Source: Rhizobiaceae bacterium (GTDB taxonomy: Bacteria; Pseudomonadota; Alphaproteobacteria; Rhizobiales; Rhizobiaceae). From it: a DNA stretch of 64,000 nt. Shown one piece after another: positions 31,573 to 64,000 of the stretch. The stretch is from the NCBI GenBank assembly GCA_014238155.1, contig JABABQ010000068.1, positions 62,001-126,000 on the forward strand, given 5' to 3'. The first letter of the stretch is position 1; each line of letters starts with the position of its first letter. The notes under the pieces were generated by a model, which was given only the letters and a program-made list of their open reading frames with translations, did no database searches and was not told the DNA's origin. Position numbers and translations under genes: made by a program.

Positions 31573-32294
31573 CCGTCTTGCATCTTCGTTGAACGTGTTG
31601 GATCAAACTTTTGGGTCACCAGATTGCCCTTGATTTCCCGTAACAGCTTTTTTTTGAAGGCTCGTTTGAAGTCGAAATAGTCTGCAGCCCTCTCAACGAA
31701 CGCACCAGGACCGCCGATGACACGGTTGCGCAGGTAATAGTGTAAATAACTCACCTCATTGATCACCGCCAGGGCGTTGATCGTGGTGCCTTCGCCCACC
31801 ACTGAATCCCGCGTGGTTTCAACTCTGTTGCCATCGTTGTTTTCGCCGTCCGCGATCACGTCTATGACCCGACGGTCTGCTCTGGTCGGGGCTGTTTCAA
31901 ACGAAAGCTGACTGAACTGAAGCGCCCCGGAAATTGAAGTTCCACCGTTTACAGTCTGACGTCCCATGCGAGCGGCTCGATTGGCAAACCTTATAGCATC
32001 CCCGGGATTGGCGATCGTGGTCCAGTCAATCGCTACTTTTTGTGTGCCGGATGTTGACCAATGTATGACCAGAACGGAAATCCGTCCGTGATAACCGTCA
32101 ACGATTGCCTTCAGAACTTCAGGGTCAGAAAACGCCGCGGCCACCCCACCTGCCTGCAGCGCATATTCGCTGCCATTGACGCTCCAGGAGCAATCCATTG
32201 CGATAACCAGATTGAGGTCCGCTCGCGTCGATTGCGCATGAGCAACGGAGAGCAACAGCAAATGCAAAAACAATGCTGTTGCCAGACGTTTCAT
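31569..32294 (-). CDS. DUF1194 family exported protein with vWA-like MIDAS motif
   Basis: 241 residues. The N-terminus MKRLATALFLHLLLLSVAHA is a signal peptide with predicted cleavage after AHA. LVIAMDCSWSVNGSEYALQ contains a D-x-S-x-S metal-ion-dependent adhesion site, and INALAVINEVSYLHYYLRN and GGPGAFVERAADYFDFKRAF match DUF1194 C-termini. These periplasmic proteins adopt a von Willebrand factor A fold; role unknown. The start ATG shares its first base(s) with the end of the upstream permease gene, so it is co-transcribed with the polyamine-type ABC operon, which is the only hint to its function. Confidence 0.85.
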   Translation of the reverse strand: MKRLATALFLHLLLLSVAHAQSTRADLNLVIAMDCSWSVNGSEYALQAGGVAAAFSDPEVLKAIVDGYHGRISVLVIHWSTSGTQKVAIDWTTIANPGDAIRFANRAARMGRQTVNGGTSISGALQFSQLSFETAPTRADRRVIDVIADGENNDGNRVETTRDSVVGEGTTINALAVINEVSYLHYYLRNRVIGGPGAFVERAADYFDFKRAFKKKLLREIKGNLVTQKFDPTRSTKMQDG

Positions 32295-46115: not shown

Positions 46116-46190
<75 letters not shown>

Positions 46191-46771: not shown

Positions 46772-47791
46772 TCAGTCACCTACAAGCGTCCAAACTCGCT
46801 TGAGCGGGATGTCTTTTTGAATGTCTTTAGGCAAATCGTCGTATGCAGCCACCAACTGACCAATAAGCTCATCGGGTCCCCAAAGTCTGATCTTGAAGAA
46901 GTTGCGCCGCGCCTCTTTGTCGGCTCCGCTGCTGAAACCACCCCAAGCCACAATGAGGCCGAGGTCAGCGCCGAATGAATTCAGGACGCCTTGCAACTCC
47001 CTCACGACTTTAACATCGATGGGTTTGTCCTGGGATTTGACTTGAACACATAGGCGAGGAGGTTCGAGTCCCAAGCGTCCTTTGCCGCACAGTATGTCAA
47101 CGCCGCCGTCTGCGCCTTCATCAGTTCGGTCTGTAATGAAACCTTGTGCGAGTAACACAGCTTCAACCAATCGCTCCAGTTCATGGCCACGAAACTTGCG
47201 GCTGATGTGGTCGCTGATTTGATCAAGAGCAAAACGTTCAATATCTGGGATAGGCGTGTCGGATGCATCGTCTCCATCGCCAGTCGCCTTGGTATCTTGC
47301 CCCAATGGAAGTGTTTTTCCATCTAACATGGCCCTGATTCGATCTTCGGCTCTGTTTCGGCTGACCTGAAATATGGTCATTGATGCACCCAATGAATGAC
47401 GCAGATCGATGTCGATGCTTTGGCGGGATAGGTCTCTTTCCTTCCACGTTACGGGTATTTGGTGGCGGCAACCCGAAACAGCCTTTGCGTCGTAGCGATA
47501 TTCTCCTTTAACAATCCCGATGGCCACCGTCGAAGTTCGCTTTCTAGGAAGTATCAATACGTCTCCCTTTTCGATGCGATTCGAAAATGCCCAAAGCTGG
47601 GTCTCCCAATTCTTCAGAGTGTTTTCTGCCTCCCCCGGATATTGCTTGTTGAGAATTGGCAGCAATTCTGAGCGCTCATTGAGGCTGCTGAGGTCGGGAA
47701 CATCATGCCACCCGGCAACAGCGATGCTGTTGTCCATGACGAATGCTTCGTTTTCTCCATTACGTCCCGCTCTCGCAACCCAAACTGGCAT
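46772..47791 (-). CDS. Mrr-like restriction endonuclease (type IV candidate)
   Basis: 339 residues. The C-terminal half is an Mrr_cat PD-(D/E)XK domain: HELERLVEAVLLAQGF (Glu), GADGGVDILCG (Asp) and CVQVKSQ (Gln-x-Lys), with an upstream about 150-residue N-domain of unknown fold (KGDVLILPRKRTSTVAIGIV). Mrr-type enzymes cut modified DNA. It is divergent from the type I system with a 141-base gap, making a two-system restriction cluster: type IV attacking methylated DNA and type I attacking unmethylated DNA. Target modification cannot be inferred. Confidence 0.8.
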   Translation of the reverse strand: MPVWVARAGRNGENEAFVMDNSIAVAGWHDVPDLSSLNERSELLPILNKQYPGEAENTLKNWETQLWAFSNRIEKGDVLILPRKRTSTVAIGIVKGEYRYDAKAVSGCRHQIPVTWKERDLSRQSIDIDLRHSLGASMTIFQVSRNRAEDRIRAMLDGKTLPLGQDTKATGDGDDASDTPIPDIERFALDQISDHISRKFRGHELERLVEAVLLAQGFITDRTDEGADGGVDILCGKGRLGLEPPRLCVQVKSQDKPIDVKVVRELQGVLNSFGADLGLIVAWGGFSSGADKEARRNFFKIRLWGPDELIGQLVAAYDDLPKDIQKDIPLKRVWTLVGD

Positions 47792-47932
47792 CGTGATCTT
47801 TCAATTTAGTTTTGTGTTGGCCGTAAGAATACTTGAAATTACTAGACACGGAACCGCAATTCTGAACAAATTGCGTCACCGCCGATATTTCAAATTTGGC
47901 GTGGAAATCATTGATCTAGGGGAACAATTAAG

Positions 47933-50104
47933 TTGAACGTTCAGGCGCACGAAGACCTCAAAGGGGATATTTGGGAAATAGCCAACCGCCTTCGCGGACC
48001 TTACCGACCTCCCCAATATCGCCTTGTCATGCTGCCGATGATTGTTCTTCGCCGTTTGGACAGTGTGCTCGAAGAGACAAAAGATGCGGTGTTGGAAGAG
48101 CACAAGCGCTTGATAGCCAACAACACGCCTGAAGGAGCTGTGGCCAAAATTCTCGGTAAGACCGCGCGCCCCAAACGTCAGTACCCTTTGTACAACACCA
48201 GCCCATTCACATTTAAGCGGCTACTCGACGACCCTGAGAACATCGCCCCCAACCTCGTGGCCTACATCAACGGGTTCTCGACAACAGCGCGGGAGATATT
48301 CGAGCGCTTCAAGTTCAGTGACCAAATTGAGAAGTTGGATGCCAGCAACCGGCTGTTCACCATTGTCAGCTCAATGGCGCAGGTCGACCTTCATCCCGAC
48401 CGAGTCGACAACATTCAGATGGGGTATCTGTTCGAACATCTCGTGATGCGATTCAACGAACAGGCAAATGAAGAAGCCGGTGACCACTTCACTCCCCGCG
48501 AAGTCATCAAGCTGATGGCAAACCTCATCTATACCGGCGAGAAGGACGTTTATAAGCCAGGTATTTATCGCACGATTTACGACCCGGCATGTGGCACTGG
48601 CGGGATGTTGTCGGAGTCTGAAAACTTCATCCTCGCTCAAAATGACGCGGCAAATCTCGCGCTGTTCGGTCAGGAATACAACGACGAATCCTGGGCCATC
48701 TGTTGTTCAGATATGTTGATCAAAGACGAAGACACCAGCAGCATTGTCCTCGGCGACACATTAGGTGATGGCAAAACGAGCGACGGCTTCGAAGACAAGA
48801 AGTTTCACTATCTAATGGCCAATCCTCCCTTCGGTGTGGAGTGGAAAGACCAGAAGACAACCGTCGAGAATGAACACCGCATCCACGGGTTTGATGGACG
48901 TTTCGGCGCTGGTGTGCCTGCAATCAATGACGGGTCGTTGTTGTTCCTACAGCACATGATTTCCAAGATGCATCCCTCGCCAGAAAAGGGTGGTGAAGGC
49001 TCGAAGATTGCAGTCGTATTTAACGGGTCGCCATTGTTTTCAGGAGACGCCGGTTCCGGCCCTTCGAACATCAGGCGGTGGATTATCGAGAATGACTGGC
49101 TCGATGCAATCGTCGCGATGCCAGACCAGCTTTTCTACAACACCGGCATTTTCACGTACATCTGGCTTGTGACAAACCGCAAGCCCGAAGAGCGGCGCGG
49201 TAAGGTGCAATTGATTGACGGCACGCGGTTCTCCCAGAAGATGAAGAAGAGCCTGAACAATAAGCGCAATGAGATCAGCGAAGATCAAATCAGCGATCTG
49301 ACAAAGCTCTATGGTAAATATCAAGACGGCGAGACCGCTGAAGTCAAAATCGACAGTAAGCCTGAAGAGCGCGTCGTGTCGCGCATCTTCGAGAACCGCG
49401 AATTTGGGTTTCTGAAAGTCACCGTAGAGCGCCCATTGCGTATGAACTTCGAAGCGACACCAGAGCGGATTGCTAAATTGGATGAGCAGAAAGCTTTCAT
49501 CAATTTAGCCGTATCGAAGAAGCACAAGGATGCCGCAGCAGTGGCGGCAGAAATTGCTGCTGGTAAGGAGCTTCAAGATACCATTCGCGACTTAGTGGCA
49601 GTTCTAACCCCTAAAGGGCGCTACATGGACCGCGACATCTTTGAACGCGACTTAAAAGCCGCTGCCAATGGCATGGACATCAAGCTGACGGCTGCCATCA
49701 AGAAGATGGTATTCGCGGCATTGGGTGAGCGAGATCAGGACGCCGAAATCTGCCGAAATAGCAAAGACGAACCAGAAGCTGACGGCGAACTGCGCGACAC
49801 TGAGAACATCCCCTTGCCACAAGGAACGAAATTGCCGTTGCCGATGGCATTCGGCCCAGATCAATCAAACGACGATTTGGTTGATCAATTCCGGGGGGAT
49901 ATTGACGACTACATTGCTCGCGAAGTCCTGCCTCACGTACCTGATGCGTGGGTTGATTATGGGAAGACAAAAGTTGGCTATGAGATACCCGTAAACCGCC
50001 ATTTCTACGTCTACAAACCACCTCGTCCACTTGATGAAATTGAGGCTGAGATTGGTGGTTTGGAAAATGAGATAGCCGAATTATTGAAGGGGCTGACAAA
50101 GTGA
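47933..50104 (+). CDS. hsdM: Type I restriction-modification methyltransferase subunit
   Basis: 723 residues from a TTG start with AGGGG about ten bases upstream; I see no better ATG. The N-terminal HsdM helical domain (LRGPYRPPQYRLVMLPMIVL) leads to the S-adenosylmethionine motif I DPACGTGGMLSES and the catalytic motif IV NPPF (LMANPPFGVEW), both of the N6-adenine class. The C-terminal about 200 residues exceed the E. coli HsdM length (529) and resemble the longer type I forms. It modifies adenine in the site chosen by HsdS. Overlaps hsdS by four bases (GTGA). Confidence 0.93.
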   Translation: MNVQAHEDLKGDIWEIANRLRGPYRPPQYRLVMLPMIVLRRLDSVLEETKDAVLEEHKRLIANNTPEGAVAKILGKTARPKRQYPLYNTSPFTFKRLLDDPENIAPNLVAYINGFSTTAREIFERFKFSDQIEKLDASNRLFTIVSSMAQVDLHPDRVDNIQMGYLFEHLVMRFNEQANEEAGDHFTPREVIKLMANLIYTGEKDVYKPGIYRTIYDPACGTGGMLSESENFILAQNDAANLALFGQEYNDESWAICCSDMLIKDEDTSSIVLGDTLGDGKTSDGFEDKKFHYLMANPPFGVEWKDQKTTVENEHRIHGFDGRFGAGVPAINDGSLLFLQHMISKMHPSPEKGGEGSKIAVVFNGSPLFSGDAGSGPSNIRRWIIENDWLDAIVAMPDQLFYNTGIFTYIWLVTNRKPEERRGKVQLIDGTRFSQKMKKSLNNKRNEISEDQISDLTKLYGKYQDGETAEVKIDSKPEERVVSRIFENREFGFLKVTVERPLRMNFEATPERIAKLDEQKAFINLAVSKKHKDAAAVAAEIAAGKELQDTIRDLVAVLTPKGRYMDRDIFERDLKAAANGMDIKLTAAIKKMVFAALGERDQDAEICRNSKDEPEADGELRDTENIPLPQGTKLPLPMAFGPDQSNDDLVDQFRGDIDDYIAREVLPHVPDAWVDYGKTKVGYEIPVNRHFYVYKPPRPLDEIEAEIGGLENEIAELLKGLTK

Positions 50105-51396
50105 CCGATGGTGTCGACTGGCTGGACGGTCTTCCTGCTGGGTGGGAGATCAAGAATCTCCGTCATCTAGGTAAAGTTCTTTTGGGGTTAACGTACTCAC
50201 CGGAGGATGTTTGTGAGGAGAATGAAGGGACTCTGGTAATTCGAGCGTCAAATATTCAGAACGGGCAGCTCGTTCACGCTGATGACGTATTCGTAGATCG
50301 AGCCATCCCAGCAAACATAATAAATCGCAAGGGCGATCTGGTTATTTGTTCCAGAAATGGGAGCCGTCGCCTTATCGGGAAGAGCGCCATAGTCGACGAT
50401 GATTGGGAAGGTGTGACATTTGGCGCATTCATGACGACCGTTCGGACCGAATATGCTCAGTGGATGCGCTGGGTTCTTGCCTCATCATTATTCGAATTTC
50501 AATCAGGTCGCTTTATGACCTCTACGATCAATCAACTTACGATTTCAACGCTCAAAAGTTTCCCCGTACCGTTCCCTCCCATCGAAACCCAAAATCGCAT
50601 CGCGCAGTTTTTGGATGAGAAGACGGCGCAAATTGATGGGCTGATCGAGAAGAAGCAGGCTCTGTTGGATAGGCTGGCTGAAAAGCGTCAAGCACTCATC
50701 ACTCGTGCAGTCACCAAAGGCTTGAACACAGATGCACCGATGAAGGACTCAGGGATTGATTGGCTGGGAGAGATACCGGCGCATTGGGAAGTGAAACAAA
50801 TGCGCCGATTGCGGGATTACATGACCAGTGGCTCTCGTGGATGGGCAGCATATTATGCCGATGAAGGGGAGCCTTTCTTAAGAATGACTAACGTCACGGG
50901 TTGGGGTACTGAACTCGACTTGCGTGAATTACGCTTTGTCGATCTTCTAGGTGTTACCGAAGGCACCCGAACGGCAGTTCAGGAGGGAGACGTTTTAATT
51001 ACAATAACGGCTGAACTTGGGACGGTTGCAATCGTTCGAAAGGAAGCAGAAGGGGCTTACATAAACCAACATCTTGCGTTGTTCAGAGCTAATAAGGCCT
51101 CCTGCTCACCTGAATTCCTGGTGAATTATCTTACAACCAAAGTTGCTCAAGTTCAGTTTCAATTAAGCGGACAAGGTGGGACCAAACAAGGTCTTGGATT
51201 TGAACAAATAAATAGCATGATCGTGGGTGTGCCACCTGTAGAGGAACAGATTTTGATTGGAGCATATTGCAAGGACATTTGGATCAATTTTTTGGAGTTG
51301 GAACGCAAGTTGAAACTGTCGATTGAGCAACTCGCCAAATATCGCTCTGCGATAATATCGTCTGCGGTTACTGGTCAACTCGAAGGCCTACAATGA
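50101..51396 (+). CDS. hsdS: Type I restriction-modification specificity subunit
   Basis: 431 residues from a GTG that overlaps the hsdM stop. Two target-recognition domains are separated by a coiled-coil spacer (IAQFLDEKTAQIDGLIEKKQALLDRLAEKRQALITRAV at about residues 168-205, quoted in parts here: LDEKTAQIDGLIEKKQ and LAEKRQALI). A second, similar spacer-like helix follows the second domain (LKLSIEQLAKYRSAI). Each domain recognises half of a bipartite DNA site. The next ORF overlaps it by four bases. Confidence 0.93.
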   Translation: MTDGVDWLDGLPAGWEIKNLRHLGKVLLGLTYSPEDVCEENEGTLVIRASNIQNGQLVHADDVFVDRAIPANIINRKGDLVICSRNGSRRLIGKSAIVDDDWEGVTFGAFMTTVRTEYAQWMRWVLASSLFEFQSGRFMTSTINQLTISTLKSFPVPFPPIETQNRIAQFLDEKTAQIDGLIEKKQALLDRLAEKRQALITRAVTKGLNTDAPMKDSGIDWLGEIPAHWEVKQMRRLRDYMTSGSRGWAAYYADEGEPFLRMTNVTGWGTELDLRELRFVDLLGVTEGTRTAVQEGDVLITITAELGTVAIVRKEAEGAYINQHLALFRANKASCSPEFLVNYLTTKVAQVQFQLSGQGGTKQGLGFEQINSMIVGVPPVEEQILIGAYCKDIWINFLELERKLKLSIEQLAKYRSAIISSAVTGQLEGLQ

Positions 51397-51980
51397 CGCT
51401 TGATGCAACCAGCTATTTCGATCACATCCAAGCCTATATTAGCGACGAGTACATCGTCAGCGATGGTGGTGGTGGAGAGATAGTGCTGAAAGAAAAGTAT
51501 TTTCGGGAGGGCGAAACAAAGAAGACAACTCGAACCGTCGAACTGCCGTTCAAAGGCAAGGCATTCGCGATAAAGTTAGATGGGATGAACCATCCTTTAT
51601 TTCATTTCTTGGATGACAACGGCAAAGAATGGTCAAAGCGATGCGATTTCGTCGTGTTCCAATGCTACAACCGACGGGTTTCCGGTTACCTTATTGAGTT
51701 CAAGACCAAAAGCCTCGATGCAACCTCGATTATTTCACAGTTGAAATCTGGACTTCATTGGTGTGCTTGTTTGAGGAAGGTGGTTCAACAGTACACAGGA
51801 GACAGTAAGCCGTTAAAATTGAAGAAATTCGTGTTCACTGAAAACAACAAACCTGATGCGTATTTGGACGCCGACAACAAATATCTGGCTCGCGACCCGT
51901 CTGTTCGGCATTATCACTACGACGACCTTGTCGGGATTGGGTTGGATGATCTGGAAAACGCTTCGGTAAACACTGTCTAG
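51393..51980 (+). CDS. Unknown gene in the type I operon, possible PD-(D/E)XK nuclease-like protein
   Basis: 195 residues. I do not recognise the family. RCDFVVFQCYNRRVSGYLIEFKTKSL (read in parts: RCDFVVFQ then GYLIEFKTKSL) has Asp, then about 12 residues later Glu-x-Lys, as in PD-(D/E)XK folds. No Walker, HTH or membrane signal. The ATG overlaps hsdS by four bases and hsdR begins eight bases after its stop, so it is an embedded member of the operon. It could be an accessory nuclease, an inhibitor or a modulator. Confidence 0.6.
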   Translation: MTLDATSYFDHIQAYISDEYIVSDGGGGEIVLKEKYFREGETKKTTRTVELPFKGKAFAIKLDGMNHPLFHFLDDNGKEWSKRCDFVVFQCYNRRVSGYLIEFKTKSLDATSIISQLKSGLHWCACLRKVVQQYTGDSKPLKLKKFVFTENNKPDAYLDADNKYLARDPSVRHYHYDDLVGIGLDDLENASVNTV

Positions 51981-51987
51981 GATCGAT

Positions 51988-54900
51988 ATGGCTGGCCACA
52001 CAGAACTAGATTTCGAGAAAGCGATTGAAAGCGACCTTGTAACCAAGGGCGGCTATGAAACGCGGGACCCAGCCTCTTACGACGAAGAGCGTGCGCTGTT
52101 TCCAGATGATGTTACGGAATTCTTGAAGTCCAGCCAGCCCACTAAGTGGGGGCAACTTGAGCAACTGCTCGGAGAGAGTACAGAGAAAACGGCGCTCGAA
52201 AGTTTGGTCAAAGAACTCGACGTCAAAGGTGCGCTCCATGTTTTGCGCTATGGGTTCAAGTGTTACGGCAAGACGTTTCAAATGGCGTTCTTTCAACCGA
52301 ACACCAGCCTGAACATCGAAGCAGCGGAGCGCTACGCTACAAACATTCTGACCATCACTCGGCAAGTAGCCTTCACATCAGTGTTGAAGAAGGCCGATGG
52401 CAAGAACCGCAGATGCATCATTGATGTCACCCTCGCGGTAAACGGCATCCCTGTCGTCACTTCAGAACTGAAGAACCAACTTACAGGCCAGCGAGCTGCG
52501 GATGCCATCAAGCAATATATGACAGACCGGGATGGGCGTGACCTCCTGTTTGATTTCAAAAAACGTGCGCTGGTTCACTTTGCTGTCGATCCCGATGAGG
52601 TCTGGATGGCGACGCGCTTGCGAGGCAAAGAAACGTTCTTCTTGCCGTTCAACCGGGGCCACAACTACGGCGCTGGTAACCCGCCAGTCGAAGGCAATTG
52701 GAAATCACACTACCTTTGGGATGAAGTCCTTCAAGCAGATAGCTTGCTCGATATTCTCCAGCGCTTCATGCATCTGGAAGTGAAGGAGACACAGGTCAAA
52801 TCCGGCAAGGGCATCCGCACCATCCGCAAGGAAACGATGATATTCCCGCGATATCACCAGTTGGATGTTGTTAGGAAACTGGTGGGCCATGCACATGACA
52901 ACGGCTCTGGACGTAATTACCTCATTCAGCATTCCGCCGGTTCCGGTAAGTCAAACTCAATCGCTTGGTTGGCTCACCGTCTATCCAGTCTTCACGATGC
53001 CGACGACGAGAAGATTTTTCACTCTGTCGTCGTCGTGACCGATAGGACCGTTCTCGATCAACAGTTGCAGGACACCATTTATCAATTCGAACACAAAACC
53101 GGCGTCGTCGAAAAGATTGATGAAAATACTCAGCAATTGGCAACGGCCTTATCCAAAGGCACGCCGATTATCATCACGACAATTCAGAAATTTCCGTTCA
53201 TATCTCGTGCTCTGTCTACGATGGAGAAACGCGGCGACGGCATTTCCATCGACACCAAAAACAAGCGCTTTGCCGTGATCGTCGACGAGGCGCATTCGTC
53301 GCAAAGTGGGGAAACCGCGACTGAGTTGCGTGGGATGCTGAACAAAGATGGGATCGAGGCAGCCATTGCCTCACAGATGAGCGAAGAAGAGGACAACGAC
53401 CTCTCAGATGCCGCTAAAGAAGCAATTCTCAGGGACACACTGAAACGCGCGCGACAACCTAATTTGAGTTTCTTTGCATTTACTGCAACGCCGAAATTCA
53501 AGACGAAAGCCCTGTTCGATGAACCTGGGCCTTCAGGGACCTCGCCATTCCACGAGTACACCATGCGGCAAGCCATTGAAGAAGGCTTCATCATGGATGT
53601 GTTGCAGAACTATACGACCTACAAGCGCTATTTCGGCTTGATAAAAGAGACTGAGAACGACCCCGAAGTTCCCCGCAAGAAAGCCGCAAAGGCCTTGGCG
53701 CAGTTTTTAGAATTGCACCCGGTGAACATCGATCAGGTTGTTTCGGTCATCATTGAACACTTCCGAAATAACGTGATGAGCGAGTTAGGTGGGCGAGCAA
53801 AGGCCATGCTGGTGACCAGTTCCCGGCTTTCGGCTGTGAAGTACAAGTTGGCCTTCGATCAATACATCAAAGACAAGGGATACAGCGGTATCCGTTCGTT
53901 GGTGGCATTCTCTGGTACCGTCGAGGACCCTGACAACCCAGGTCCTACCTACACCGAAGTTGCGATGAATGACGGATTGTCAGAAAGCGCATTGCCTAAG
54001 ACTTTTGAGCGCGATGACTATCGAGTTCTGATAGTGGCCGAGAAATACCAAACTGGCTTCGACCAACCGCTGTTACAGACAATGTATGTAGTGAAACGCT
54101 TGGCCGGTGTTCAAGCCGTTCAAACATTGTCACGCCTCAATAGGATGGCTCCGGGTAAGTCGCGGACCTTCGTTTTGGATTTCGTGAATGAAGAAGATGA
54201 CATCTACGAAGCCTTCAAGCCGTATTACGAGACTACACCAGTGGGTGAGAATGCAGACCCCCATAAGCTCTCGGAACTGCAACACAAGCTGCTTGAATGG
54301 GCGATATTTGACCCCACTGAGGTCATTCGCTTTTCTGAAATTTGGTATCGCCGCAAGCGCGATCACTCTGCAACAGACCATCGCGAAATGAATGCAGTGC
54401 TGGATGTCGTGGTGGAGCGTTTTGGCGAGAGGGAAGAGCCAGAACAAGAAGAATTTCGTGGGCAACTCACGGCCTATCGCAACCTGTATTCATTCCTATC
54501 GCAGATCATTCCATATCAAGACAGTGACCTCGAACGGTTCTATGCCTTTGTCCGCAGTCTGATTTCGAAGTTGCCACCACCGGGAGATGGCAAGGGCTTT
54601 ACACTCGATGACGAAGTCGCCCTGCGCTTTTTCCGCCTTCAACAAATGAGCGATGGATCAATTGACCTCTCAGATGGGGAGGCTGACCCTCTCAAAGGGC
54701 CAACTGATGTTGGTACCGCTGGCAGCAAAGATGAGGACGTTGTTCTTTCCACTCTTGTGGGGAAGTTGAATGAACGCTTTGGCACCGATTTTACAGAAGC
54801 CGACCAACTGTTTTTCGATCAAATCCAAAGGACAGCCGAGGAGGACGAAAAAGTCGTTGAAGCGGCAATCGCCAACGAGTTTTCAAACTTCTCGTCATAT

Positions 54901-55056
54901 TTGGACAGGACACTCGATGAACTCTTCATTGATCGAATGGAAGGCAATGAAGAGATTTTTTCTCGCGTGATGTCGGATAAACAATTCAGGTCATCGGCCC
55001 ACGCACACCTTGCTAAAGAAATCTTCGAGCGCATTCGCCAGAAACACTCTCATTGA
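51988..55056 (+). CDS. hsdR: Type I restriction endonuclease subunit
   Basis: 1022 residues. N-terminal nuclease domain with IDVTLAVNGIPVVTSELKNQ (Asp ... Glu-x-Lys), then SF2 translocase motifs: Walker A HSAGSGKSNSIAWLAHRL, DEAD-type VDEAHSSQSGE, FTATPKFK and YQTGFDQPLLQTMYVVKRL, followed by a helical C-terminal domain. It translocates and cuts unmethylated DNA together with HsdM/HsdS. Starts eight bases after the previous ORF. A T-rich hairpin after the stop would end the operon. Confidence 0.95.
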   Translation: MAGHTELDFEKAIESDLVTKGGYETRDPASYDEERALFPDDVTEFLKSSQPTKWGQLEQLLGESTEKTALESLVKELDVKGALHVLRYGFKCYGKTFQMAFFQPNTSLNIEAAERYATNILTITRQVAFTSVLKKADGKNRRCIIDVTLAVNGIPVVTSELKNQLTGQRAADAIKQYMTDRDGRDLLFDFKKRALVHFAVDPDEVWMATRLRGKETFFLPFNRGHNYGAGNPPVEGNWKSHYLWDEVLQADSLLDILQRFMHLEVKETQVKSGKGIRTIRKETMIFPRYHQLDVVRKLVGHAHDNGSGRNYLIQHSAGSGKSNSIAWLAHRLSSLHDADDEKIFHSVVVVTDRTVLDQQLQDTIYQFEHKTGVVEKIDENTQQLATALSKGTPIIITTIQKFPFISRALSTMEKRGDGISIDTKNKRFAVIVDEAHSSQSGETATELRGMLNKDGIEAAIASQMSEEEDNDLSDAAKEAILRDTLKRARQPNLSFFAFTATPKFKTKALFDEPGPSGTSPFHEYTMRQAIEEGFIMDVLQNYTTYKRYFGLIKETENDPEVPRKKAAKALAQFLELHPVNIDQVVSVIIEHFRNNVMSELGGRAKAMLVTSSRLSAVKYKLAFDQYIKDKGYSGIRSLVAFSGTVEDPDNPGPTYTEVAMNDGLSESALPKTFERDDYRVLIVAEKYQTGFDQPLLQTMYVVKRLAGVQAVQTLSRLNRMAPGKSRTFVLDFVNEEDDIYEAFKPYYETTPVGENADPHKLSELQHKLLEWAIFDPTEVIRFSEIWYRRKRDHSATDHREMNAVLDVVVERFGEREEPEQEEFRGQLTAYRNLYSFLSQIIPYQDSDLERFYAFVRSLISKLPPPGDGKGFTLDDEVALRFFRLQQMSDGSIDLSDGEADPLKGPTDVGTAGSKDEDVVLSTLVGKLNERFGTDFTEADQLFFDQIQRTAEEDEKVVEAAIANEFSNFSSYLDRTLDELFIDRMEGNEEIFSRVMSDKQFRSSAHAHLAKEIFERIRQKHSH

Positions 55057-55957: not shown

Positions 55958-58900
55958 TTAGTAGTTGTCGCGGCGCTTCGTGCGTTCAAGCTGGCGACCA
56001 ATTTCACGCGTGATGTGAGATTGCTTCTGTCTGAAGCTATTCGCGTCAGTTGCGTTGATGGTCATATTGACATTCTGGGTGACGTTGGCCCCACCAGCAC
56101 CACGACCGCCATTAATCTCAACAGGGATAGCGCCGCCTTTAAGTGGCACGACCGATTCATTGCGGTGGAGGATGGCGGGGATGGGACCGCCGCCCATGCC
56201 CTGAGTTGTTCCACCGTTTGCGAAGTGAGGTGTTCCCGGTCTTGAGAATTCTGACATTTTGGCATTCAGCATCTGAGTTGGATTGTGCGAAATTCCGCCA
56301 TTGCGGAACCCGCCGAAGATCGACGAAAACATCGAGCCAATACCGCCGCCGCCACCGGAGCCGCCAAAGAGGCCACCACCACCGGAGAACAATTGCTTGA
56401 ATGTGTTTTGAGCTGCGAGCTTGATGAGATCGCTGATCCAGCTCCTCACCATCGAGCCGAAATCAATTTTCCCCTTCATTACGAAATCGCTGAGCGCCGT
56501 GCTCAAGTCACCGCTGATTTTGCTGCCAAGGCCTTCGAGACCCTTCTGCATTTCGCCGATGCCTGACTTGAAACCTTCAATGCCGGATTTGTCTTTGAGG
56601 ACGTCATTCAGCTTTGTTTGATTTTCGATAGCTGCAAGGGTTCCCGCGTTCGCCGTATTCTGAAGGTCGACACCTTGCTGAATGAGACCGTGCCGCGACT
56701 TGCGAAGTGTCTCTTCAACCCGGCGCTCTTCATTCGACATCGACAACAGGATGCGCTCTTCAGCGAGTTTTGCTTGTTGGCGAGCCAATGGGTCAGATGC
56801 ATTCTTGATGGCTGCGTTGAGGCGCTGGCGAAGCGTGATGGCTTCTTCAGCCGTGATCTTACCGGCAGTCTGTTGCTGGTGTAGCAGCTCCAGCGCACGG
56901 CGGAAATCAGATACAGCCATAGCAGCTTCTCGGTGAGCTGAAGCGGTTTCGCGCGCTGCGTTCGTGGCTGCCGTTGCATCTCTGCCAGTAGTTTTCTTCT
57001 TCTTTTTCTTGACGACTGGGTCACCCAGCTCGACCAAACCGTCAAATTGGTTTGTTGATGCTTCAACCGCAACAACTGCCGTTGATTCTTTTTTCGCAGC
57101 TTTGACTACGGCTTCTTTGCGCTTCTCGATTTTGACAACTTGCTTTTCGAATTCATCGCCGACTGCTTTCGTTGCAGATGCAGCGACGTCTTGAGCACTC
57201 TTTACAGCAGTGTCGAGACCGCCCCGAATGGTGTCGGTGAATGCCGATGCGCTATCAGTAACTTTCTTGGCGAGTTTGTCAGCACCGCCTTCAAAGTTTG
57301 CGCCGAGATCGGTGTTACTCTTTTCATAGGCATCCATCATGTCGCCGGGAACCTTCATGAGTTCACGACCAGCGGCTTTAACACCTTCAGCCCTAAATTT
57401 ATCCCATGCCGAACCAACGCGGCTAAACATCGCGTCGAATGCCCCTGCCATTTGGTCAGCAATATCTTTGGCAGATGCAACCAATCCATAGAGGACATCG
57501 ACAACGCGTTTGACCCCGCTCTTTGCTGAGGCAACCATACTGTCGAACGAAGTGTCGAAATGAGCGAGAAAACCGTCAATGCCTGCTTCCGTGTCAGTCC
57601 AAGCTTGAGAGAAGGAGTCGCCAATACCGCCAGCAACTTCTTTGGTTTTCTCCCAGACGTTATTGAGTGAAGTCTTCGCAGCATCCCAGACTTTGCCGAA
57701 GATGGCAGTGACGGTATTCCATGAAGCCTCAAGAATTTCGGCAGTCGATAGACCACGCGCTTTGAGTTCTTTGAACTTGGCGATTGCTGAGTCGAGGACC
57801 CCCGTCAATTTCAGGAAGCCAGTAACGAGACCAGCGACAACCAAACCCTTCAAGCCAATCTTGAGGAGAGCACCAGCGGCAGCAGCGCCTGCCGTGGCAG
57901 TGCGCAAACCGACCATCGCCCCAGCCAGTCTGCCAACGTTGGCGATGACTGAGCCAGCGGTTGCCAGCGCAATTCGTGTCCCCATGAGTGTGGCTTTAGC
58001 CGCGACAGTTGCAAAAGCGATCCCCATCTTGCCGAGTTCAACTACAACTCCCAGGGTCCATCGTGTCATGCCCAGCGCGATAATACCGGCGATGCCTGCG
58101 CTCAGCGGTGCGATGTTCTGAGAGGCGAATAGGATGGCTTGAGCGAACCTAGCAGTTGCGCTGGTGGCATCAGATGACGAGCCAATCATATCGGTGAATG
58201 AAGTTCTGAAGACAGCCGCCGCCGACGAGATAGTCGGGGCGAGCCTTGCGAATTCCGCGTTTAGTTTTGGTGCTTGGTTGAGGAAGGAGTCGGTCAAGAC
58301 TTTACCCGTCAGTTGACCCGCCGTACCCAGCGCTTTCAACGAGCCTATAGGAACACCCAGAGCGTCCGCGAATACCTGCATAACGCGCGGCGCGTTCTCG
58401 GCGAGTGATCTGAATTCGTCGCCGTTCAAGCCCTTGATGAGCGACTGGCTAAACTGTGTGGCAGCCGATGCGGCCTCCTGAGCAGTTGCACCGCCGAGCT
58501 GCATAGCTTGCGCAAATGACTTCACGATTTTGACGTTGTCTTGCTGGGTCAGGCCCAATGACTTCGAGCGCTGGGTCAATCGCTGGAAGAGACTGACATT
58601 GCCTTCGAGCGAAGACCGCGTTTCTTTCGAGACCCGAACCATCGCAGCCCATGCATCATTTAGTTGGTCGACGCCGCTGGTAACGATTTTCAATTTATTA
58701 CGCATATTATCGTACGCGTCAGCCGTGCGGATGACGGCGCTGAGGCCGAGCAAGCCGACGAAACCGCCAAGCGAACTTTTGAGGAAGGCGAGTGCACCAC
58801 TGGTGCGCGTCATAGATGCGGAGAGGGTAGCAAAACCAGCCGTGGCAGTGCCGAGACGTAGTTGCTGGATGGATGCGTTGTACGTGAGCTGAGCGCGCGC

Positions 58901-59287
58901 CAAATCGCCGGTAGTCTTCGACGTCGTGAGCATCTGGGTCTTGAGGGTCGCCAGCGCCCCATTAAGGCGGGTGATGCCGCGAGTATCCCCGACGAGCGCC
59001 AATTTGGCTCGAAGTGAGGCGGCAGAGCGTTCAACTGATAGGAAGCGAGATTGTGCAGTCGTGGCAAAACGGTCGAAGGCCCCCGTATTGAGACCCTTGC
59101 CAATGTTTTTCGATTGGGTTGAGACGGCTGCCATCTTCGTGCTGAGTTTGCTGAATGAAGAGCTGGCTCGCTTATCAAACCTCTCGGCTGAGCGGCCTGC
59201 TGCATCAACGGCAGCTTGAAATTGTTTGGAACCTTTGACGGCTTTGGTGGTGTCAATTGCCCAGATGAGGGTTTGGGTATTTGCCAT
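55958..59287 (-). CDS. Phage tail length tape-measure protein (lambda gpH type)
   Basis: 1109 residues from the ATG at 59287, which has AGGGAG upstream; a further ATG eight codons upstream lacks a site. Near residues 175-330 is the tape-measure N-terminal domain (TADAYDNMRNKLKIV, AQAMQLGGATAQEAASAA, LNGDEFRSLAENAPRVM), then a hydrophobic helical stretch near 390-480 (LSAGIAGIIALGM), long helical coiled coil (about 530-760), and the lambda-tail-tape C-terminal domain (WISDLIKLAAQNTFKQLFSG and GGIS). It sets tail length and is cleaved or ejected during infection. No tail genes follow, so the module is truncated. Confidence 0.92.
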   Translation of the reverse strand: MANTQTLIWAIDTTKAVKGSKQFQAAVDAAGRSAERFDKRASSSFSKLSTKMAAVSTQSKNIGKGLNTGAFDRFATTAQSRFLSVERSAASLRAKLALVGDTRGITRLNGALATLKTQMLTTSKTTGDLARAQLTYNASIQQLRLGTATAGFATLSASMTRTSGALAFLKSSLGGFVGLLGLSAVIRTADAYDNMRNKLKIVTSGVDQLNDAWAAMVRVSKETRSSLEGNVSLFQRLTQRSKSLGLTQQDNVKIVKSFAQAMQLGGATAQEAASAATQFSQSLIKGLNGDEFRSLAENAPRVMQVFADALGVPIGSLKALGTAGQLTGKVLTDSFLNQAPKLNAEFARLAPTISSAAAVFRTSFTDMIGSSSDATSATARFAQAILFASQNIAPLSAGIAGIIALGMTRWTLGVVVELGKMGIAFATVAAKATLMGTRIALATAGSVIANVGRLAGAMVGLRTATAGAAAAGALLKIGLKGLVVAGLVTGFLKLTGVLDSAIAKFKELKARGLSTAEILEASWNTVTAIFGKVWDAAKTSLNNVWEKTKEVAGGIGDSFSQAWTDTEAGIDGFLAHFDTSFDSMVASAKSGVKRVVDVLYGLVASAKDIADQMAGAFDAMFSRVGSAWDKFRAEGVKAAGRELMKVPGDMMDAYEKSNTDLGANFEGGADKLAKKVTDSASAFTDTIRGGLDTAVKSAQDVAASATKAVGDEFEKQVVKIEKRKEAVVKAAKKESTAVVAVEASTNQFDGLVELGDPVVKKKKKKTTGRDATAATNAARETASAHREAAMAVSDFRRALELLHQQQTAGKITAEEAITLRQRLNAAIKNASDPLARQQAKLAEERILLSMSNEERRVEETLRKSRHGLIQQGVDLQNTANAGTLAAIENQTKLNDVLKDKSGIEGFKSGIGEMQKGLEGLGSKISGDLSTALSDFVMKGKIDFGSMVRSWISDLIKLAAQNTFKQLFSGGGGLFGGSGGGGGIGSMFSSIFGGFRNGGISHNPTQMLNAKMSEFSRPGTPHFANGGTTQGMGGGPIPAILHRNESVVPLKGGAIPVEINGGRGAGGANVTQNVNMTINATDANSFRQKQSHITREIGRQLERTKRRDNY

Positions 59288-59340
59288 AATATTATTACTC
59301 CCTGACCTCATTTAGCGGGTCAGTTTTTTGGTCACTCAGG

Positions 59341-60870: not shown

Positions 60871-61221
60871 ATGAATATGTTGAAAATGATCAAGATAGCC
60901 GCCGTCGTAATGATGACGACAACCAGCGCCGAGGCTTTAGACCTCACCAAACACCCGCGCCTAGTTGTGGCGATAGAAAGTGTTTGGACCACCGCCAATG
61001 ATTGCGCGGAGTTTGGCGAGCCATACGCCGGGACCGCTGAGGGCTTCAGGAAGATTTTGGTGATGATGGGTTATGATCAGCGCTTCTTCGATTTTCGAGA
61101 TGGAGGAGCCGAACGATTTCGCGAATACCTCAGAGAAGCCAGATGTGTGAGTGATTATAATCGCCGCCTTGAGCGCATGCTTTACTTACGGGGCGAGGCG
61201 AAGAAGCGCGAAGAGGGGTGA
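60871..61221 (+). CDS. Small exported protein of unknown function
   Basis: 116 residues. Signal peptide MNMLKMIKIAAVVMMTTTSAEA followed by a mature part starting LDLTKHPRLVVAIES, with two Cys (NDCAEFGE and REARCVSDY) that could form a disulfide. GAGGAGC lies upstream of the ATG. I recognise no family. It is in the middle of the island, transcribed away from the tail fragment, with a candidate terminator downstream at 61463-61525. Confidence 0.6.
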   Translation: MNMLKMIKIAAVVMMTTTSAEALDLTKHPRLVVAIESVWTTANDCAEFGEPYAGTAEGFRKILVMMGYDQRFFDFRDGGAERFREYLREARCVSDYNRRLERMLYLRGEAKKREEG

Positions 61222-61462
61222 ATCATTCGAAGCGGTAAGGGCCAGATGGAAGTGGTGAAGTGGCGAAGGCCTCAGGCGGTCTGGCTATGGGTCCCCGGCG
61301 TGATGTTTGACGAGGTGACTGGGTGACGGTGACGGTTACGCCGGTTGGAGGGTGCGACGGTTGCGTTTCAATGTACCGAGGCGGGTAACGTTAATTATTC
61401 AGGTTGCCGAACTCGGTGACAATTACGTACAATTTTAACCAGTTTTTTGATCATGCGTCTCG

Positions 61463-61525
61463 CAGGGACTAGCACCGATATCTCTCTCTTGGTAATGCTA
61501 CCGATTGGGTCCCTGAGGACTTTTT
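61463..61525 (+). terminator. Candidate terminator with long loop
   Basis: CAGGGAC at 61463-61469 pairs with GTCCCTG at 61509-61515, with an inner GGTA/TACC stem, followed five bases later by TTTTT. The loop is nearly 40 bases, so a structured RNA is equally possible. Confidence 0.3.
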
Positions 61526-61653
61526 ATTTGGCAATTATGTCGAGATGATTGAGTGATATTGATTGATCATTTGTGCTGGCGACCATGTCCCTATCAATCC
61601 TGGGAGTCGCGATCTTATCGAGGCGTGGGCTGCCGGGTGGGGGCTATGTGCCT

Positions 61654-61670
61654 ACCGTCGTAACCGTCAA
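61654..61670 (+). repeat. 17-bp direct repeat, left copy
   Basis: ACCGTCGTAACCGTCAA is exactly repeated at 63805-63821. The two copies flank the serine recombinase gene and the iteron array. Confidence 0.7.
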
Positions 61671-61992
61671 TTTGTATCGCGATGTTGTCGAGATATTGTT
61701 GATCATTGAGCGAGATGATGTTCGGAATATTCATTCAATGTTCGTCGAGGCGCTGGGTCATGGCGATCTGCATTGCGATTTGTTATTGCGTTGATGTGGG
61801 TGGGGTGACCCCTCCTATTTGTAAATGATCGCATGCATAGAAGGGTACCCCCTTTCAAGAAAATGACCGAGGCCCCGGGCTTAGATATGTCGTTGATGTT
61901 TGGGATTTGGAATCGGATACCCCAACCACCTCCCATTTCCCCAGCCCCCACCAGACCCCAAAGCTGTAGCCAAAGGCGGGGTATATGTTCGC

Positions 61993-62715
61993 TCATACGT
62001 GGGGTGTTGGGTGCGCTGGGTGTGGCGTGGTAGGTGGTGGGGTGAGTGGCGAAGGGTGGCGCTTCTCAAATTTGTACAGCGTGTTCTCTGATACAACGAT
62101 ACCATGCTGGTATTTCAATACGTTCGACTGCACCCTCTTCGAAACGCCCAGCCCCCTGACCTCAGTCAATGCCTTCATGATGACAGGGTCGCGTTCAATG
62201 TACTCTTTGCCAGCTCGCTCGGCGATCTGATAGCCGAAGGGGATAGTGCCGCCTAGATAGCGCCCTTCAGCCGCCTGTTCACGTTTGATAGTGCGCACGC
62301 GCTCGGCGATCTGATCACGCTCGAACTCGGCAACTGAACTGAGAAGGTTGAACACCAAGCTGCTGACACCGTCACTTGTTACATCGCCACCCAGTGCTTT
62401 GATGTAAAGGATGACGCCCTTCTTCTTCAAGGCCTTCAATGTGGCAACAGCATCGCCAATATCACGAAACAGCCTGTCGAGCTTCAGTGTCACGATGATG
62501 TCGCCTTCTTCGACGATATCAAGCAACTGTTGCCCTTGCGGCCTTTTCTTCAATGGGGTCGAAGCCGAGACGCCTTCTTCAGTATAGATGTGGCCCAGCT
62601 CATAACCCTCAAGCTCACAGATCAACCGAACCTGCTTTTGCTGGTGAGGAAGCGAGTTGCCTTTATCGACCTGATTAGAAGTCGAGACCCTGCAATATCC
62701 GTAAGCTTTAGCCAT
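61993..62715 (-). CDS. Serine site-specific recombinase (resolvase/invertase family)
   Basis: 240 residues from the ATG at 62715 with GGAGAA upstream; a start at 62760 lacks one. The N-terminal resolvase domain has the catalytic Ser in YCRVSTSNQ, plus LKLDRLFRDIGDAVATL and EFERDQIAERVR. A short GRYLGGTIPFGYQ segment and a helical DNA-binding region (GVSKRVQSNVLKYQHG, ENTLYKFEKR) follow. The last about 20 residues are low-complexity Pro/Thr/His encoded by G-rich DNA (SPLTPPPTTPHPAHPTPHV), suggesting a drifted or frameshifted 3' end. It could mediate inversion, resolution or transposition of the element. Confidence 0.88.
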   Translation of the reverse strand: MAKAYGYCRVSTSNQVDKGNSLPHQQKQVRLICELEGYELGHIYTEEGVSASTPLKKRPQGQQLLDIVEEGDIIVTLKLDRLFRDIGDAVATLKALKKKGVILYIKALGGDVTSDGVSSLVFNLLSSVAEFERDQIAERVRTIKREQAAEGRYLGGTIPFGYQIAERAGKEYIERDPVIMKALTEVRGLGVSKRVQSNVLKYQHGIVVSENTLYKFEKRHPSPLTPPPTTPHPAHPTPHV

Positions 62716-63194
62716 TTTCTGTTCTCCATTTCTTGCCCAGATTGTAGCATTTTCTCCCATCCGTTTCCACGCCTGCTAGAGCAGTTTGTGAAGCTATAGT
62801 TAACGTGAACTTGAGATATGGTGAATCATTCCTTAATATCGGGGTCGGCAATTAATTAAAATTGTATTGATCCGTGCCATTCGCCTCTAAACAAGGCTGC
62901 CGGGGCTAAAGTGTGATATATTTGCAACAGCTTTGCTCTGGTCGCCGGAAACTAGGGGTTTTCGAGCATTTACGTACAAACGGGGCATAAATAATACAGC
63001 TTCAAGTTGTATTGCAATCAGTTGCAACCTAAGGTAAAAAAGTGTCCCATTTTGGCACATTTCGTACCAGACGAGCATTTGACAAATCATTCGCCTGAGG
63101 GCCACCGGGAGAGGTCATTCAGGATGATGTCATAGAAAAAAAACCACTCGAAATGAAAAAGGGTCTTGATGAGGTCGGATAATGCGAAAAATCC

Positions 63195-63765
63195 TTCACC
63201 AAGGCCATGGTGAAATTGGTGAAGGTATTACCCTTTTATTTCAGTGGCTTAAAAATCCAAAACCCCGATTCACCATGATCACCATGGCTGGGAGTAGATA
63301 AACCCCTAAATGAATGAGACGTAAAAAAAGGGGGCCGGGAGTTATCTATTCTGAGGCTTGGTGATCATGGTGAAAGAATGACTATAACTATATACTAACT
63401 ATGTGATATAATTGAGAAAAGGCGTTCTTTAAGCAAGGTGATTCTATGGTGAAAGCAAAAAGTGCGAAAAGGAGTTATCTTATTGAAAACAAAGGAAAAA
63501 AGCTTCACCAAGGCTTCACCATGGCTTTGGTGAAGGCTGGTGAATCGGGATAAATATCTTGTAAGCCATTGAAAACATTGAATAAAGGGAGTATTACAAA
63601 AAGACCATTTTGAACGGCTAAATTACTAACCTATTGTTATTATAGGGTTATTTCTTTCACCATGGCTTTGGTGAAACGCTCAATCCCTTTTTTTTTCTGA
63701 CGGGAAATTCTAAAAACACACTTCATCTAGAATATCCGCTAAAATGGTCTGGTGAAGCTGGTGAA
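63195..63765. repeat. Iteron array of TTCACCA/TGGTGAA, candidate replication origin
   Basis: TTCACCA at 63195, 63269, 63504, 63515, 63656 and TGGTGAA at 63208, 63217, 63368, 63447, 63528, 63538, 63669, 63750, 63759: fourteen exact copies in 571 bp, against well under one expected by chance. They are arranged as three 20-bp palindromes TTCACCATGGCYTTGGTGAA (63195-63214 reversed, 63515-63534, 63656-63675) and one inverted pair TTCACCATGATCACCA (63269-63284 with 63359-63374). GGAGTTATCT occurs twice (63338, 63471). The iterons of satellite phage P4, bound by its alpha replication protein, share the TTCACC core. Confidence 0.85.
63378..63420. other. AT-rich tract inside the iteron array
   Basis: A 43-base stretch with very low G+C (ATGACTATAACTATATACTA-type sequence) lies between iteron pairs. 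In iteron origins such a tract is the usual duplex-unwinding element; here the role is inferred from position. Confidence 0.4.
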
Positions 63766-63804
63766 TCCATTTTCATCATCTGCGCATTCATCTCGACCGC
63801 CGCA

Positions 63805-63821
63805 ACCGTCGTAACCGTCAA
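63805..63821 (+). repeat. 17-bp direct repeat, right copy
   Basis: ACCGTCGTAACCGTCAA, identical to 61654-61670, lies 40 bases after the last iteron. Together they bracket the recombinase gene and the array. Confidence 0.7.
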
Positions 63822-63861
63822 GTCGACGCCCTGTCAGCTCCGGTACCTCTACAAACAAAAA

Positions 63862-63895
63862 GACCCGCAAACGACGGTTAGGTCATCGACGGGTC
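63862..63895 (-). terminator. Candidate terminator for a gene entering from the right
   Basis: On the minus strand GACCCG and CGGGTC make a 6-bp stem with a 22-base loop followed by TTTTTG. It lies 32 bases past the possible end of a minus-strand frame at 63928. Confidence 0.4.
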
Positions 63896-63927
63896 ATAAA
63901 TGCGCTGGTGAGGCTCGCTGAGGGCTT

Positions 63928-63999
63928 TTAATGCCTTGTGGCGTGTTCTGGGTGCGCTGGTGTCGAACGCTGGCTGACGAACCTCTTAGGCTTCTTCTT
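63928..63999 (-). CDS. Possible C-terminus of a minus-strand gene continuing beyond the window
   Basis: The minus frame ending in TAA at 63930-63928 encodes KKKPKRFVSQRSTPAHPEHA and three more residues, a basic ending with a candidate terminator after it. Only 23 residues are visible; reading frame choice is uncertain. If real, it is the best place for the replication gene expected next to the iterons. Confidence 0.3.
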   Translation of the reverse strand, partial: KKKPKRFVSQRSTPAHPEHATRH

Positions 64000-64000
64000 T

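Follow-up and report, generated by a model that had tools for sequence, protein, structure and literature searches.

The closest described systems are the replication modules of SaPI, PICI and SCC elements. In the excerpts of the literature on which we draw, the Rep protein of SaPIs recognizes, through its C-terminal domain, iterons that lie directly downstream of its own gene; a kinship between the DUF927 protein Cch and SaPIbov1 Rep is described, and in SCC the Cch2 origin sits between the helicase and recombinase genes (PMC7581432). PICI origins are described, again in excerpt, as following directly 3′ of the initiation gene and as having an AT-rich region flanked by two sets of iterons (PMC6092414). 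An origin of this kind, with a Rep helicase gene and iterons directly 3′ of it, is already known as the rule in SaPI, PICI and SCC elements. We did not find a survey-level form of that rule for DUF927 genes outside staphylococci in the portions of the open literature that we consulted.

Here we describe a repeat array in a 64,000-nt window (the whole stretch of DNA that was analyzed, bases 62001-126000 of a 141,995-base contig), together with the right-hand continuation of the contig, examined as L005. Comparison of sequences leads us to regard this array as very probably the replication origin of a 26.6-kb integrative element at a tRNA-Phe gene, used by the DUF927 protein that the element encodes.

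Results

The array and its neighbors

The array holds 14 exact TTCACCA/TGGTGAA sites, counted on both strands, and allowing at most one mismatch raises the number to 17 in 63150-63800 (coordinates of all features are collected in Table 1). The preliminary description had counted the same 14 copies in 571 bp, in both orientations, and its palindromic 20-mers and inverted 16-mer pair are present as it described them: three 20-mers start at 63195, 63515 and 63656, and the 16-mer pair (63269-63284 and 63359-63374) falls in a larger 38-nt inverted repeat that is 82% complementary. Neighboring sites on the same strand are spaced 9-11 bp apart, about one helical turn, and the facing sites within the 20-mers 13 bp. 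The iteron groups flank AT-richer tracts on both sides. Such tracts had been called very AT-rich, which overstates a feature that does exist: among overlapping 50-bp windows, five (63375, 63450, 63550, 63575 and 63600) reach 70-74% AT, with 74% as the maximum, and the rest have 46-66%, so that the tracts are only mildly AT-richer than the remainder. The array had also been taken to be free of genes, as it appears to be, with no ORF of at least 80 aa inside 62800-63927; an Rfam search of 61000-64000 gave no match.

The earlier claim that the repeat is not a product of chance was borne out by shuffling. In the 928 bases downstream of the DUF927 gene, the top 7-mer has 14 copies per 600 bp, a count that none of 100 dinucleotide shuffles reached (mean 3.1, maximum 5). 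The window as a whole has 34 TTCACCA sites, 20 of them outside the array, and its shuffles have a mean of 10.5. Beyond the array, the 26.6-kb element has 10 more lone sites, each more than 300 bp apart, where uniform base usage predicts about 3; there is no second TTCACCA cluster elsewhere in the element.

A replication gene had been proposed to lie right of the window, and one was found there. The stop codon of a DUF927 helicase gene (729 aa) is 162 bp from the last repeat, and 20 bases upstream of this gene is a primase-like gene (594 aa; phrog_16950, 3.4e-17). The DUF927 protein matches the Pfam DUF927 model above its cut-off (3.6e-24), the primase/helicase family phrog_8841 (6.7e-17) and the NCBIfam SCC Cch1 helicase model (4.6e-10, though far under that model's naming cut-off). 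A phmmer search of the PDB with the single protein gave no match, and the structural match requires a profile: one built from 19 DUF927 proteins, this one among them, matched 8tch ("Pathogenicity island protein," 1.9e-39) and 5dgk ("Active helicase," 1.6e-34), which we take to be SaPI Rep and SCC Cch, respectively. The C-terminal profile alone found nothing significant in the PDB (5dgk at E 1.8). The genome has one DUF927 gene, and protein scans of genome contigs and viral contigs confirmed no close relatives of it. A search of the plasmid collection with the primase-like protein gave no match, and among 61 genomes the protein matched only in its own. Between the DUF927 gene and the array, on the strand of the gene, is a hairpin followed by a U run (-19.8 kcal/mol, z -5.28), and none of 200 shuffles was as stable. 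A gene for a serine recombinase of 255 aa stands on the opposite side of the array, 434 bp off, and points away from it.

Table 1. Features of the array, its neighbors and the ends of the element. Coordinates are those of the window, continued along the contig where they exceed 64000, or of L005 where so marked
Feature	Position	Strand	Basis
attL, left element end = last 46 bases of tRNA-Phe gene 46116-46190	46145..46190	+	exact repeat
Serine recombinase gene, 255 aa; might resolve circles after replication	61993..62760	-	ORF and profile match
Iteron array, proposed replication origin	63195..63765	.	14 exact TTCACCA/TGGTGAA sites
AT-richer tract between iteron groups, possible melting site	63375..63424	.	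72% AT
Second AT-richer tract, possible melting site	63550..63649	.	70-74% AT in 50-bp windows
Terminator-like hairpin then U run, between DUF927 gene and array	63858..63895	-	folding vs shuffles
3′ end (73 bases) of DUF927 helicase gene, proposed initiator	63928..64000; whole gene L005:929-3118	-	Pfam, PHROGs, NCBIfam
Primase-like gene	L005:3139-4923	-	phrog_16950
Tyrosine integrase gene of element	L005:8522-9673	+	profile match
Right element end, 46-bp repeat	L005:9729-9774 (72728-72773)		exact repeat

The integrated element

The final 46 bases of the tRNA-Phe gene are repeated exactly 55 bp past a tyrosine integrase gene, and the element between the two copies measures 26,629 bp. In a congener, G1113, the left-hand flank matches at 86% identity as far as 46190, the last base of the tRNA, where the similarity ends. 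The stretch right of the element gave short matches of 66-73% in three of six congeners, none of them beside tRNA-Phe, and no joined empty site was found. A second tyrosine integrase gene (L005:9961-11133, minus strand) lies directly right of the element's right end; it is possibly a remnant or belongs to a second element in tandem, and the stretch examined near it has no third copy of the 46-bp repeat. Because of this second integrase gene, and because the right-hand stretch is not beside tRNA-Phe in the six congeners, the locus looks composite. On contig C60 of the same genome, a 55-bp stretch (31932-31986) is 95% identical to the 3′ end of tRNA-Phe and may mark a further insertion or a tRNA remnant.

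The cargo of the element includes a defense region (46772-55056) in which an Mrr-like nuclease (PADLOC PDC-S02, 2.6e-128) adjoins a type I restriction system, the latter carrying a further gene, of 195 aa, between hsdS and hsdR. It also includes a full-length tape measure gene (55958-59311, minus strand; 1117 aa; Pfam TMP_3, 1.8e-46), upstream of which, to 60412, are three small ORFs with no Pfam match. The best-covered phage matches of the tape measure protein include Rhodobacter phages, at 32-34% identity, and a distant second tape measure protein (26%) is encoded on contig C77 of the same genome. No capsid gene was recognized among the element proteins scanned with Pfam or PHROGs, a scan that covered the small ORFs in part; at the far left end there is a weak HTH_17 match, under its cut-off. 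By gene content, the element is a candidate satellite.

Arrays behind other DUF927 genes

A first set of loci came from an order-level search (DUF927 matches in 15 of 397 genomes) and a class-level search (22 of 385), the present genome being in both. Together with our own locus, the 43 others made 44, of which five with less than 300 bp downstream were dropped; 39 remained, 36 of them with enough upstream sequence. As the measure we used the best 7-mer count per 600 bp, with a line at 7 or more copies that was drawn after the first set had been seen. On this measure 18 of the 39 genes have an array downstream (17 of 38 without our own locus) and none of 36 has one upstream; among windows behind other ORFs 1 in 330 reached the line, with an A-rich word. 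Counts that no shuffle of 100 reached were found downstream in 20 of 39 cases and upstream in 0 of 36.

For a second set, drawn from a phylum-level search (matches in 48 of 398 genomes), the 7-copy threshold was fixed beforehand. It gave 56 rows, 6 of them already in the first set; 40 of the 50 new ones were taken, and ten that were partial, split, extra-copy or low-scoring were left out (one of those kept, L181, was scored from what is apparently a C-terminal piece of the gene). Seven or more copies were present downstream in 15 of 40, upstream in 0 of 37, and in 3 of 234 control windows behind other ORFs; one of these three, that of L186, shares its core with the weak downstream repeat of its own element, and the other two are from L162 and L180. 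All 50 shuffles were beaten downstream in 24 of 40 and upstream in 3 of 37. Both sets together thus place an array behind 33 of 79 DUF927 genes, about four in ten, and leave over half with none by the 7-copy measure (21 of 39 and 25 of 40); the counts are not fully independent, for L067/L081, L189/L190 and L154/L155 are close relatives or have an iteron in common.

In 32 of the 33 arrays the first copy lies within 200 bp of the stop codon. The next ORF past the array, found with a crude caller, has the same direction as the DUF927 gene in 18 cases, is convergent in 13 and was not found in 2. Since the copies begin near the stop codon whatever the direction of the next ORF, the position of the arrays points to sites bound by the product of that same DUF927 gene and not to promoter operators. 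The 7-mers differ among most elements (TGACCAA, CGGGACC, GGGCAAC, AGACAAC, GGCCACA and others), and a few recur (GTAGCAC, GGGGACA, GGCAACA). Six control windows of the first set have at least 6 copies, and in five of these the word is the iteron of that same element, which forms a second cluster in L080 (from position 896 or so) and in L081 (from 9803 or so), roughly 3 kb upstream of the DUF927 gene, which is split. The other 19 arrays checked, including the present one, have no second cluster within the stretch examined.

A third group of 15 comprised 13 of 33 matching phage and plasmid records and two family-level genomes. All 100 shuffles were beaten downstream in 5 of 15 and upstream in 1 of 15, and P4 alpha, the positive control, passes the downstream-array test. 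The ten lacking a shuffle-beating array are seven circular plasmids, the 6.4-kb pTAO100, a faecal phage record and the satellite-like phage vB_Pae_U10. The seven plasmids are larger ones (36-372 kb; L115-L117, L122-L125) and have no clear array behind the DUF927 gene, unlike several smaller or phage-like elements.

The relation between protein and iteron was examined in 26 loci at which at most 2 of 100 shuffles reached the count, L071 and L078 having been dropped as doubtful seeds. Iteron similarity correlates with identity in the C-terminal part of the DUF927 protein (rho 0.20, 12 of 1000 permutations), and the partial correlation is about 0 (523 of 1000 permutations) when core identity is held constant. 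Iteron similarity therefore tracks protein relatedness in general, and the C-terminal part adds nothing beyond the helicase core.

Discussion

We read the array as an origin used by the DUF927 protein because of the published precedent of SaPI and PICI elements and the profile match to 8tch and 5dgk. The preliminary description had proposed an initiator-binding array and hence a candidate origin, a proposal that gains support from the adjoining DUF927 and primase-like genes and from the same layout behind many distant DUF927 genes. Several points count against it: more than half of the DUF927 genes surveyed lack an array by the 7-copy measure, the seven larger plasmids and vB_Pae_U10 have none that beats every shuffle, the C-terminal part adds nothing to the helicase core in relation to the iterons, the AT-richer tracts are mild, and the single protein has no phmmer match in the PDB.

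Other explanations must be weighed. The repeats could be operator sites through which a transcription regulator acts on the serine recombinase gene or on the replication operon, given that many regulators bind short inverted repeats, that origin iterons can double as regulatory sites, and that the recombinase gene, facing away, has the array on its upstream side. We nevertheless consider this improbable: elsewhere the array stays behind the DUF927 gene whatever follows, arrays of this sort are absent upstream of DUF927 genes in both sets, and the stretch has one promoter-like site where 1.8 are expected. Still less probable is a role as the res site of the serine recombinase, as arm sites of the integrase, or as a centromere-like partition site. 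Sites for a resolvase or for integrase arms come in small numbers, well short of 14. Some 9 kb separate the array from the right end of the element and 17 kb from the left, the proteins that were scanned included no partition protein, and next to the recombinase gene, the expected place for a res site, the repeats are few, short and weak. In favor of such a role are the recombinase gene itself, so near the array, and the SCC Cch2 origin, which likewise lies between helicase and recombinase genes (PMC7581432, in excerpt).

That chance alone clustered the repeats, or that they are a degenerate MITE, as the palindromic 20-mers might suggest, we regard as scarcely credible. The shuffles never approached the count, and the spaced iteron pattern occurs at just 4 places in the genome, 3 of them in the array and 1 inside an ORF on another, phage-like contig. 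The preliminary description had proposed searching genomes for the 20-mer beside initiator genes; a degenerate form of it occurs on 13 contigs, none of which has more than 3 sites per 600 bp or a DUF927 gene, and this too speaks against a chance cluster or MITE.

If the array is an origin, we envisage that the integrase would excise the element as a circle before replication and that the DUF927 helicase would bind the TTCACCA iterons beside its own gene, probably through its C-terminal part. The helicase would assemble on the array, melt one of the AT-richer tracts and load itself as the replicative helicase, whereupon the neighboring primase-like protein could begin synthesis. Because the C-terminal part explained the choice of iteron no better than the core did, the putative binding domain is assigned on the precedent of SaPI.

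A broader proposal, which we offer as speculation and think unlikely to be right, is that DUF927 helicases are widespread "private key" replicons, each with its own iteron repeated some 7-15 times behind the initiator gene and sometimes again kilobases off, in which initiator and iteron change together; the present element would be one of them, housed in a phage satellite with its own tape measure gene. Were this so, the initiator-iteron pairs could disclose a recognition code, and the satellite might, through its own tape measure gene, determine the tail of a helper phage.

Under the origin reading itself, an unannotated noncoding stretch becomes a testable replicon. A search just behind the DUF927 gene yields a candidate origin for about four in ten of the distant genes, mostly with different iterons, and about thirty initiator-iteron pairs can now be used to work out how DUF927 helicases recognize DNA. 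The layout also gives a clue to islands in which no role is known for the DUF927 gene, such as those of the MGIVchHai6 type, where, in the excerpted account, the gene is dispensable for mobilization and its conservation was called surprising (PMC7449626).

Among known systems, satellite phage P4 follows the same plan with an initiator of another type. The preliminary description had equated the TTCACC core with that of the P4 type I iterons, and this is literally true: TTCACC is present in 14 of 16 annotated type 1 repeats of P4, several direct neighbors are 9-11 bp apart, and the crr array lies directly 3′ of alpha with an annotated terminator between. P4 has two clusters, crr and ori, which the double clusters of L080 and L081 recall, whereas the present element has one. 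We rejected assignment to the P4-like satellites, whose initiator is the alpha primase-helicase fusion; here that type is absent, and a DUF927 protein is accompanied by a separate primase-like gene. Since other DUF927 elements mostly use other 7-mers, and since the initiator matches DUF927 and SCC Cch models and not P4 alpha, the shared core is probably coincidence or convergence.

Two mobile elements offer parallels in layout. The satellite-like Pseudomonas phage phiAH14b has 10 copies of GGGGAAC, and a 25.7-kb phage-like plasmid of Vibrio harveyi has 12 copies of CTGTTAC, in each case beginning no more than about 50 bp from the stop codon of the DUF927 gene; their DUF927 proteins are 27% and 22% identical to ours, and their iterons differ from TTCACCA. 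With SCC the element shares a DUF927 helicase akin to Cch and a noncoding stretch between the helicase and serine recombinase genes, like that of the Cch2 origin (PMC7581432, in excerpt). It is not an SCC element, for the large Ccr recombinases are absent (the 255-aa recombinase scores 80.6 bits against a CcrB cut-off of 900, far below the Ccr models), and it has tRNA-Phe ends and a tyrosine integrase.

The element differs from SaPI and PICI in its iteron sequence, its large size of 26.6 kb, and its cargo of type I restriction and tape measure genes; neither a known PICI regulator nor a known PICI packaging gene was recognized in it, and the PICI-like parts matched are the int, primase-like and DUF927 genes and the array. 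The likeness to the SaPI/PICI Rep-ori module, drawn from excerpts of the published descriptions (PMC7581432, PMC6092414), lies in a helicase gene of the self-loading type with iterons directly 3′ of it, an adjoining primase gene, and an integrase with att ends.
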